DNA of 53,254 nt from NCBI GenBank assembly GCA_900315055.1, contig OMXP01000013.1:1-53254 (forward strand), written 5' to 3'. Position numbers and translations under genes: made by a program. A model generated the notes under the pieces. That model was not told where the DNA came from, did no database searches, and saw only the letters and a list, made by a program, of their open reading frames with translations. Positions 5,945 to 8,151 of the stretch are shown one piece after another (the stretch's first letter is position 1; every line of letters starts with the position of its first letter). Source of the DNA: an uncultured Lachnospiraceae bacterium (GTDB lineage: Bacteria; Bacillota; Clostridia; Lachnospirales; Lachnospiraceae).

Positions 5945-6877
5945 ATGGCTGAAAAACTGGAAGTGGCGAAAAAGGAAGAAGTGGGGAAGATCTTTTCCCT
6001 CTATGAGGACAGAGTCCGCTGGATGGACCGAAACGGCATTCAGCAGTGGAATACGGATGACTACCTTCTCATCTACCCGCTCGAGTACTTCGGGCAGATG
6101 CAGGAGGAGGGAAAGCTCTATGCGCTGAAGGACCCTTATGGCACGATCGTCGGGGCCGTGGTGCTGACAAGGGAGGATTCCCGCTGGGACGATGACGCAC
6201 CGGCAGTCTACCTTCACAACCACGTGACGGATCCGGGGGTCCGCGGCATGGGACAGGTGATCATCGAGCAGGCGGGCGAGATCGCGGCGGCCGAGAATAT
6301 CCCCTGTCTTCGCCTCGACTGCGCAAGGGACAATGCGTTCCTGAACGTCTACTACGATTCCCTGGGCTTTGAGGACTGCGGGATCTGCGAGGACGGTCCG
6401 TACGTGGGGATCCGGAGACAGAAGAAGATCCGCAAGGAAGGAGAGCTCACCTTCCGCAGAGCCGGTGAACAGGACATGCAGGCGGTCTATGAGCTCATCT
6501 GCCGCATGGAGGGCAGGGATCTTCCGCTCTCGTCCTTTTCGGAAATCTATCAGAAGCAGGTGGAGAGCGGAACCTTTGCGATGGTCCTGTGCGAGAGTCA
6601 GGATCAGGGACTCGTGGGCCTTCTGAACCTTCGCATGGAGTACTTCCTTCACCACGTGCGCAAGGTTGCAAGGGTTGAGGAGCTTCTCGTTCACTCCTTG
6701 GTCCGCTCCCAGGGCATCGGAACACAGCTCCTTCAGAAGGCGGAGGAGATCGCGCGGGAGAATCAGTGTACGGAGCTGGTGGCCGCGGCAAACATCAGGC
6801 GCCAGGACGCCTTCCTGTTCTACACGCACTTTGGCATGGAGAAGGATCACGTCCGGTTCTCCAAGATGCTGGAGTGA
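5945..6877 (+). CDS. Tandem GNAT-domain N-acetyltransferase
   Basis: A 310-residue cytosolic protein made of two GNAT (Gcn5-related acetyltransferase) folds. The first spans about residues 1-155, with VYLHNHVTDPGVRGMGQVIIEQAGEIA as the acetyl-CoA binding segment and LRLDCARDNAFLNVYYDSLGFE as the C-terminal strand-helix. The second spans about 160-310, with VEELLVHSLVRSQGIGTQLLQKAEEIA (R-x-x-G-I-G pyrophosphate loop) and ANIRRQDAFLFYTHFGM. The second P-loop looks canonical; the first is weaker (V-R-G-M-G). The start has a GGAAGGGGGG ribosome site. The acetyl acceptor is unknown. It lies alone between the rha terminator and the RhuM-Fic gene. Confidence 0.87.
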   Translation: MAEKLEVAKKEEVGKIFSLYEDRVRWMDRNGIQQWNTDDYLLIYPLEYFGQMQEEGKLYALKDPYGTIVGAVVLTREDSRWDDDAPAVYLHNHVTDPGVRGMGQVIIEQAGEIAAAENIPCLRLDCARDNAFLNVYYDSLGFEDCGICEDGPYVGIRRQKKIRKEGELTFRRAGEQDMQAVYELICRMEGRDLPLSSFSEIYQKQVESGTFAMVLCESQDQGLVGLLNLRMEYFLHHVRKVARVEELLVHSLVRSQGIGTQLLQKAEEIARENQCTELVAAANIRRQDAFLFYTHFGMEKDHVRFSKMLE

Positions 6878-6932
6878 AAGCCGGAAGAAGAGGTTTGTGA
6901 AAGAATCAGGCTGCTGATAGAAGGAAAGCAAG

Positions 6933-7922
6933 ATGTCAAAGGCACTAACTCCGGATCAGAATCTTGAGTATCAACTTGCCATATTTGAGACGCAGGACCG
7001 GGAAATCAGCCTGAAGGTCCGCGTGGAAGATGAGAACGTGTGGCTGAACAGGCAGCAGATGTCGGAACTGTTTGGCAGGGATATCAAAACAATTGGCAAG
7101 CATATCAACAATGCCTTGAAGGAAGAATTGAAAGGAGAAGTGGTAGTCGCAAAATTTGCGACTACCACTCCTCACGGGGCAATGCAAGGAAAAACACAGC
7201 TGCATCTGACAGAGTATTACAGCCTGGACATGGTGTTGTCTGTCGGGTACCGTGTCAAATCCAAGCGTGGTATTGAGTTCCGCCGATGGGCCAACGATGT
7301 CCTTAAGCGGTATATCCTTGACGGTTATTCAGTCAACGAAAAGCGACTGCAGGCGCTGCAGAAGACCGTGGAGATTCAGAGCAGGATGCTTGCGGACACC
7401 TTGCAAGTTGATGCAGATGAGGTGCTGCGTGCGGTCAACAGATATACGGAAGCGCTGGCACTTTTGGATCAGTATGATCATCAGGCTTTGCAGAAACCGG
7501 TTGGAAACAGCCCGGTTTATCGGATTACAGCAGAAGAATGCAGAGATATGGTTGATCATATGCGGGATATCTTCCATACAGATGTATTCGGTGTGGAACG
7601 GAAGCCAGGAATAGTGGATGGCATTATTGCGGCTGTGTATCAGAATGTATTCGGGGAGGAAGTTTATCCCACGCTGGAGGAGAAAGCAGCGAATCTTCTG
7701 TATTTCATGATCAAGGACCACCCCTATGTTGATGGCTGCAAGAGAATTGCAGCGTCCCTGTTTTTGGAGTTTCTTGATCGCAATCATGCCTTGTACAGGG
7801 CTGGTGGTTCAAAGGTCATCAGTGACGGAGAGCTGACAGCCATGACGTTAATGATTGCAGAATCGAATCCGCTGGAAAAGGAAATCATGACCACGATGGT
7901 AATGAATTTTCTTACAATTTAA
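6933..7922 (+). CDS. RhuM-family protein with C-terminal Fic/Doc domain
   Basis: A 329-residue two-part protein. Residues 1 to ~135 match the RhuM type: VWLNRQQMSELFGRDIKTIGKHINN, the VVVAKFATTT patch (70-79) and the YYSLDMVLSVGYRVKSKRGIEFRRWANDVLKRYILDGY signature. Residues ~200-329 form a Fic/Doc fold with the active-site loop HPYVDGCKR at 263-271; the family consensus is HPFx(D/E)GN(G/K)R, so the usual Asn is Cys here. Fic domains transfer AMP or phosphate to proteins; the substrate here is unknown. RhuM genes are usually accessory and often found in genomic islands. The codon composition is clearly more AT-rich than its neighbours, consistent with transfer. A perfect 31-bp DNA dyad lies inside the coding sequence (separate entry). 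Ribosome site AGAAGGAAA precedes the ATG. Confidence 0.88.
   Translation: MSKALTPDQNLEYQLAIFETQDREISLKVRVEDENVWLNRQQMSELFGRDIKTIGKHINNALKEELKGEVVVAKFATTTPHGAMQGKTQLHLTEYYSLDMVLSVGYRVKSKRGIEFRRWANDVLKRYILDGYSVNEKRLQALQKTVEIQSRMLADTLQVDADEVLRAVNRYTEALALLDQYDHQALQKPVGNSPVYRITAEECRDMVDHMRDIFHTDVFGVERKPGIVDGIIAAVYQNVFGEEVYPTLEEKAANLLYFMIKDHPYVDGCKRIAASLFLEFLDRNHALYRAGGSKVISDGELTAMTLMIAESNPLEKEIMTTMVMNFLTI
7139..7169. repeat. Perfect 31-bp intragenic dyad in the RhuM-Fic gene
   Basis: Arm AGTGGTAGTCGCAAA (7139-7153), one central A (7154), then the exact reverse complement TTTGCGACTACCACT (7155-7169). It covers codons 70-79 (V-V-V-A-K-F-A-T-T-T). All wobble positions obey the symmetry. As mRNA it could form a 12-bp stem with a 7-base AAAAUUU loop; as DNA it could be a binding site. 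Confidence 0.97.
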
Positions 7923-8018
7923 TGACGCATGTGAAAAAATACACCAGTGCGTTTGCCCCAGATAGCCACTGCACGGGTGCAGTCTGAAATTGGAACGTCC
8001 ATCAAAAAGGAACAAAAA

Positions 8019-8104
8019 GCCGGCACTCTGGCGGTTTTAGCGGCATCGTCTTTCCAAAAGGAGAGAGGTGCCGCTGCTTTTTTTCCAAACCGCCAGGTGC
8101 CAGC
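8019..8104. terminator. Nested inverted repeats with terminator downstream of RhuM-Fic
   Basis: The 229 bp after the RhuM-Fic gene hold no gene. An inner hairpin pairs AGCGGCA (8039-8045) with TGCCGCT (8069-8075), with weaker pairing further in, and is followed by GC and seven T (8078-8084), a plausible plus-strand terminator. An outer imperfect repeat pairs GCCGGCACTCTGGCGGTTT (8019-8037) with AAACCGCCAGGTGCCAGC (8087-8104). The nesting could be a two-way terminator between convergent genes or the relic of a small inverted-repeat element. Confidence 0.6.
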
Positions 8105-8151
8105 TGTAAAAGGCTGTGTTCTGCTCCGGTGCCTGTTGTTTTTGTTTTTAC

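Follow-up and report, generated by a model that had tools for sequence, protein, structure and literature searches.

A self-encoded operator is the probable role of an inverted repeat conserved inside rhuM genes

Introduction

The O protein of phage lambda is described as a dimer that recognizes inverted-repeat sites within its own gene, near the part coding for its DNA-binding half (PMC4488673, PMC7466680). Here we analyzed a 31-bp perfect inverted repeat (dyad) located inside a rhuM-fic gene of an uncultured Lachnospiraceae bacterium, carried by a 53,254-nucleotide stretch of DNA (contig OMXP01000013.1, referred to as the window in the rest of the paper), together with the same region of its relatives. 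By analogy, the lambda origin of replication (ori) inside gene O appears to be the nearest precedent, as the binding site lies inside the protein's own coding sequence and both travel together, which would also be the case for RhuM, whose binding to the dyad is a prediction. However, lambda ori is composed of four 19-bp iterons and an AT-rich unwinding region that serve replication, whereas rhuM genes contain one 25-bp site, are carried by numerous bacterial genomes and plasmids, and present at least 41 different pentamers that follow a helix code.

In P22-type phages, the pac site of the small terminase lies inside the terminase gene, so that this product also has its recognition site within its own gene. 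This site differs in its packaging function and the protein in being a ring-shaped oligomer, and we know of no comparable code linking helix and site for the small terminase. RhuM-Fic also resembles Phd-Doc and the other type II toxin-antitoxin systems by its Doc-like C-terminal domain and by a DNA-binding part that would repress its own gene; unlike these systems, it joins the toxin-like and DNA-binding parts, and its putative operator lies in the gene rather than in the promoter. RptR is a small DNA-binding protein that represses type I restriction operons by means of a palindrome (PMC12255303), but it is an unrelated protein that acts on 6-bp palindromes in the promoter, and RhuM goes unmentioned in that paper. 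In the LacI family, a recognition code was deduced from the covariation between helix residues and operators (PMC2978694); these operators are described as lying in promoters, whereas that of rhuM would lie in the coding sequence of the same gene. A published analysis suggested that RhuM itself is a toxin domain associated with restriction operons (PMC3710099), and a Streptococcus RhuM-Fic protein was studied for its Fic part, RhuM being described as dispensable for host-cell entry (PMC6529018). Our searches of open-access papers returned no description of an in-gene rhuM dyad. RhuM differs from lambda O in that a single site is used throughout the family, with a code in two parts that can be read from the sequences.

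Results

The rhuM-fic gene of the window (Table 1) contains two arms of 15 bp each, at positions 7139-7153 (AGTGGTAGTCGCAAA) and 7155-7169 (TTTGCGACTACCACT), which are exact reverse complements of each other around a single central base, A7154. The dyad begins 207 nt into the gene, with its first base in the third position of codon 69 and its last in the third position of codon 79, and encodes the peptide EVVVAKFATTT, in which three Val codons (GTG GTA GTC) are mirrored by three Thr codons (ACT ACC ACT). Both the perfect dyad and the mirrored codons had been pointed out in a first reading of the letters of the window (the sequence-only reading), and both were confirmed. Arms lengthened to 19 nt (7135-7173) are 95% complementary. 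The 13 further inverted repeats listed between positions 6000 and 9000 are widely separated, less complementary, or just 10 to 12 nt long; the 17-bp centre of the dyad, when up to 3 mismatches are allowed, matches nothing else in the window but its own reverse strand; and none of 200 shuffles of the segment 7120-7190 folds as well as the dyad does as RNA (−29.4 kcal/mol, z = −5.85). The dyad therefore lies beyond chance, which bears out the initial view that such a match was very unlikely to be fortuitous.

Relatives were gathered in two sets drawn mostly from the phylum of the window. The first set consisted of 267 loci, including the window: 80 from GTDB contigs, 30 from near relatives, 92 from IMG/VR, 30 loci plus 20 regions from a same-phylum spread of 398 genomes, and 15 from plasmid or phage records. 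One of the 268 original sources, L081, repeated the window gene and was left out. Loci were the best 80 of 124 from GTDB, the best 80 of 117 from IMG/VR, the best 28 to 30 per genome spread, and 60 chosen regions. A match to the domain profile was obtained for 258 of the 267 loci (9 had none), and the domain was complete in 245 and incomplete in 13; dropping genes with at least 85% nucleotide identity left 189 genes. The held-out set comprised 68 loci from a same-class spread, 8 of which were redundant, and thus provided 60 genes, for a total of 249 non-redundant genes. In these spreads, rhuM genes were present in 65 of the 398 bacterial genomes sampled for the first set and in 92 of the 391 sampled for the held-out set. 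Fourteen of the 15 annotated plasmid or phage loci were non-redundant. Taxa represented among these loci are Vibrio, Pseudomonas, Roseomonas, Methylocystis, Neotabrizicola, Bacteroides, Pseudonocardia and Aliarcobacter, and the loci also include Wolbachia phage WOVitA2, two Gordonia phages and a Methanobrevibacter virus.

The best dyads were centred on a base in 189 of the 189 genes of the first set and in all 60 held-out genes, although both centre parities were allowed. They share a 25-bp architecture made of a triplet, 2 bp, a pentamer and a 5-bp AT-rich spacer followed by the mirror image. In the 189 genes, pairing reaches 97-99% at distances 3 to 7 from the centre, 79% and 84% at distances 8 and 9, and 98-100% at distances 10 to 12. 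It is 54% at distance 13 compared to 29% expected from composition, 64% compared to 60% at distance 2, and at or below composition at distances 1 and 14 to 16. The held-out genes gave 93-100% at distances 3 to 7 and 98-100% at distances 10 to 12. The central 5 nt are 95.5% A/T, compared to 59.7% across the genes (n = 249), and the length of the spacer is constant throughout the 249 aligned genes. While the 31-bp dyad does exist in the window, constraint across relatives is thus limited to the 25-bp core at 7142-7166.

Core complementarity of the 249 genes, counted over eight positions per half-site, amounted to 1,964 of 1,992 positions, compared to 1,325 upon synonymous resampling (sd 15, maximum of 200 resamplings 1,369), an excess of more than 40 standard deviations. 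All eight core positions were complementary in 224 of the 249 genes (including 13 of the plasmid or phage loci, Gordonia phage Sidious having seven), compared to 1.3% of 1,494 synonymous resamples in which the centre was searched anew each time and 0.4% of 1,591 downstream windows from the same genes. Likewise, 131 of 189 genes had a stem score of at least 10, versus 2.2% of 11,340 synonymous resamples and 0.27% of 3,382 other windows taken from these genes. Complementarity therefore far exceeded the codon-shuffled null against which the sequence-only reading had suggested weighing it. This reading had also supposed that relatives with differing peptides would still back-translate to a dyad. 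Such is the case, as at least seven of the eight core positions are complementary in 247 of the 249 genes, even though the pentamer takes 41 forms and the peptide 176, and variants of the type named in that reading were found (SVVRKFRTT; RTCANFAQV in L095). The site lies within the coding sequence in 249 of 249 genes, and the dyad is universal in the sampled rhuM genes.

The supposition that variants would share the same centre holds for most genes, but the site is shifted to another frame in 33 of the 249. For instance, loci L163 and L185 have an identical helix (GVDRSVITK) in their predicted DNA-binding domain and the same pentamer GTGCA, but read it in differing frames as the unrelated peptides SNVQKMHFA and STSAKIAQV. 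As a given half-site can encode unrelated peptides in two frames, it is the DNA that is conserved and not the peptide. This observation also bears on the trivial explanation that a conserved peptide is palindromic by chance or through codon usage. Some peptides do lean to palindromy, 8/8 core positions being reached by 1.3-1.8% of synonymous resamples and 7/8 or more by 16%, but neither the magnitude of the excess nor identical half-sites encoded as unrelated peptides is compatible with such an artefact, the probability of which we regard as negligible.

The letters of the site follow those of the protein. Across the first set of 189 genes, the residue located just before a conserved His, in the penultimate position of the helix signature, sets the two innermost bases of the pentamer: E goes with GG (37/37), R with CA (41/41), L with AG (22/22), Y with GA (14/15) and Q with AG (5/6), while K (n = 59) is associated with CA (35), CC (22) or AC (2). 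The helix RDIKTIGK or RDVKTIGK was found in all 13 training genes having the pentamer TCGCA. The outer triplet is associated with the type of the loop encoded after the site: EGxR with AAC (74/74), DGK with AGT (55/60), HGA with GGT (19/21), GRKP with CTT (13/15) and DKP with GCA (11/14), leaving 5 of the 189 wing loops unclassified. The two links are separate. Partial Mantel correlations were 0.60 for helix and pentamer and 0.80 for loop and triplet, compared to 0.009 for helix and triplet and 0.016 for loop and pentamer when the pairs were crossed, and −0.03 and 0.03 for the background protein. The frame-shifted genes obey the helix rule in 31 of the 32 cases that it covers, although the nearest helix in the other frame gave the correct whole pentamer in only 11 of 33.

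These associations recur independently. On a tree of 201 genes built from the part of the protein that follows the domain, the pentamer changed at least 111 times and the triplet at least 65 times. Phylogenetically independent pairs varied in the same direction in 20.4 of 22 cases for E/GG, 11.5 of 12 for L/AG, 8.0 of 10 for Y/GA, 16.3 of 23 for R/CA and 8.6 of 9 for HGA/GGT, and none of these five associations had a pair in the opposite direction; results for the loop types EGxR and DGK were left aside. Crossed controls were not significant in independent pairs (median P = 0.69 and 0.29). When the associations of the first set were applied unchanged to the held-out genes, the triplet was correctly predicted in 54 of 58 cases and the inner dinucleotide in 47 of 52, and the whole pentamer was predicted by the nearest helix in 43 of 60 genes, compared to 22 of 60 by the nearest background sequence.

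Because the letters of the dyad follow the predicted helix and wing of the same gene, the in-gene inverted repeat is probably a self-encoded operator, bound by the protein itself, that would let RhuM throttle its own gene. This was the first of the roles named by the sequence-only reading, and the covariation of helix and wing with the site supports it. That reading also considered an integration or recognition site. rhuM genes are mobile, and dyads are common targets of enzymes such as integrases and transposases. Yet binding by an unrelated factor, be it an integrase, a transposase or another regulator, would give the site no reason to track the helix of its host gene across independent lineages, nor the helix any reason to predict the site in held-out genes, which makes this explanation extremely improbable.

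The third role envisioned was an mRNA hairpin, which could control translation or decay and might be bound by RhuM as RNA. Besides the strong fold of the window dyad, self-complementarity and compensatory changes are also what an RNA stem would produce. An RNA stem, however, tolerates G-U pairs and not A-C. The core mismatches of the 249 genes are strand-symmetric, with 6 G-T, 9 A-C and 13 others, and those at distances 8 and 9 amount to 28 G-T, 24 A-C and 32 others. This lack of G-U excess disfavours a hairpin, as does the fact that the letters of the pentamer, beyond their pairing, are set by the predicted DNA-recognition helix. Moreover, pairing of the central 5 nt does not exceed that expected from composition, the stem ends at distance 12-13 and the length of the spacer does not vary. 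Altogether, we deem a hairpin very unlikely.

The structure predicted for the protein also favours a self-encoded operator. AlphaFold modelled the domain alone as a winged helix-turn-helix (HTH) with helices at residues 36-43 and 47-60 and strands at 68-76 and 84-92 of the domain model (mean pLDDT 87, pTM 0.81), and the peptide encoded by the operator would form the first strand of the wing (Table 1). Foldseek returned no match under 1e-3 with the domain model, and a sequence search of the PDB returned no convincing relative of RhuM. N-terminal domains weakly matched Bro-N in 13 of 74 cases in one alignment (best 0.00018). Pfam analyses assigned the protein of the window to RhuM (PF13310; 72.8 bits for a cut-off of 33.7), with a model that begins at residue 71, within the operator-encoded peptide, and to Fic/Doc (PF02661; 31.7 bits for a cut-off of 24). 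Residues 12-328 also match the PADLOC candidate defence family PDC-S23 (E = 4.2e-120), and the sole NCBIfam match was a sub-threshold DOC_P1. Foldseek aligned the protein model with P1 Doc 3k33 (probability 1.00, E = 6.8e-3), the C-terminal part of the model being of low confidence. While the canonical Fic/Doc catalytic motif is HxFx(D/E)GN(G/K)R, the protein reads HPYVDGCKR, thereby keeping the His, Gly, Lys and Arg and replacing the Asn with Cys.

Table 1. Position of the dyad, its predicted parts and the codons of the predicted DNA-binding elements in the window
Feature	Position	Strand	Basis or remark
rhuM-fic gene, 329 aa	6933..7922	+	Predicted winged HTH (N-terminal), RhuM domain, Fic/Doc-like domain (C-terminal)
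Predicted recognition helix codons, residues 51-64	7083..7124	+	AlphaFold models
Full perfect dyad	7139..7169		31 bp, noticed in the sequence-only reading
Putative 25-bp operator core, GGT-AG-TCGCA-AAATT-TGCGA-CT-ACC	7142..7166		8/8 core positions complementary
Left outer triplet GGT, distances 12-10	7142..7144	+	Predicted wing target
Predicted wing strand 1 codons, residues 72-80, largely operator-encoded	7146..7172	+	AlphaFold models
Left pentamer TCGCA, distances 7-3	7147..7151	+	Predicted recognition-helix target
AT-only spacer AAATT, 5 bp	7152..7156		Sets the two half-site centres one helical turn (10 bp) apart
Right pentamer, mirror copy of TCGCA	7157..7161	-	Pairing across relatives
Right outer triplet, mirror copy of GGT	7164..7166	-	Pairing and loop-type association
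Predicted wing tip loop codons, residues 81-87, PHGAMQG, HGA type	7173..7193	+	AlphaFold models, loop-type association

The centre of the dyad lies at a median of 202 nt after the first plausible start codon (218 genes). Second copies were not enriched near rhuM genes, and the window has a single site. Upstream regions contained a dyad matching the gene's own site at 12 or more of 16 positions in 4 of 238 cases, compared to none of 658 control stretches. Only two of these, in L225 and L268, are promoter-like, 79 and 77 nt before the first listed start codon, respectively; such upstream dyads of the same class as the in-gene site also favour a self-encoded operator. The other two are explained otherwise: that of L134 sits in a truncated second RhuM frame (HTH and operator, then a stop) about 50 nt before the intact rhuM, and that of L085 resembles a terminator. 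We therefore rejected a promoter dyad as a general site. In L225, the own-class dyad (15/16) stands beside a second dyad of the GTAAG class, which is proper to other helices and perhaps reflects cross-control by a second RhuM.

Discussion

The covariation suggests a RhuM dimer whose two recognition helices would each lie on one pentamer, in adjacent major grooves, while each wing would touch an outer triplet. The operator encodes the first strand of the wing, hence recombination could not part the DNA-binding domain from its site. The bound dimer would stop RNA polymerase within the gene, and this negative feedback would work whatever the promoter. Such an in-gene roadblock is favoured by the rarity of promoter sites (L225 and L268) and by the lack of enrichment of second copies. 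Where rhuM sits in an operon, such as hsdM-rhuM-hsdS-hsdR, genes located downstream would be damped as well. This gene order was observed in plasmid locus L256 and a similar one in L263, L264 and L265; on each of these four plasmids, rhuM is flanked by a methylase gene (hsdM or similar) on one side and by hsdS or an hsdR-like helicase gene on the other.

RhuM could instead bind its in-gene site to start replication, or for partition or packaging, as lambda O does at ori. However, each gene has a single site and no iteron array, and a role as an origin or pac site is unexpected for a gene that is common in bacterial genomes and in type I restriction operons of plasmids; we consider these functions unlikely. 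A more speculative version of the self-encoded operator is that the gene acts as its own antitoxin, the in-gene operator being a DNA leash that keeps the dimer of RhuM-Fic (or RhuM) quiet. As long as its coding sequence remained intact and double-stranded, the few dimers would stay bound and synthesis would be repressed; degradation or takeover of the DNA by a phage, or loss of the mobile element, would release the dimers and let them act. We give this version little credence, but if it were true, a single gene would act as an addiction and defence module, with its own coding sequence as the sensor.

If the dyad is a self-encoded operator, a widespread gene family without a consensus function for its N-terminal part carries the probable DNA target of the protein it encodes, and the same coding stretch has apparently been selected both as a protein and as the predicted binding site of that protein. 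Each sequenced rhuM gene then provides a matched DNA-binding domain and predicted site, hence a natural recognition code, divided between helix and wing, can be read off the databases. Such an operator also suggests a way for a mobile regulator to keep its feedback behind any promoter, as the operator would be lost only with the gene itself.

In the genome of the window, the in-gene site is the only exact copy of the 25-bp pattern. Allowing up to 3 mismatches, 33 forward matches were found (1 exact, 3 with two mismatches and 29 with three), compared to 4 for the reversed pattern, 3 for another control pattern and 7 for the reverse of the latter. We do not claim a regulon in this genome, as the sole exact copy lies in the gene and codon usage may explain the excess of near matches. 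In the window, an Rfam scan gave 0 matches at gathering scores and a tRNA scan gave no lead, and a promoter scan of 6700-8150 returned 2 sites for 1.5 expected. Twenty-three Streptococcus phage records contain rhuM, mostly satellite phages among those listed, and the rhuM gene of Javan598 adjoins an integrase gene. In the window, a GNAT acetyltransferase gene (5945-6877) stops 55 bp upstream of the start of rhuM-fic, and an inverted repeat (8028-8037 and 8087-8096) lies downstream of the gene.
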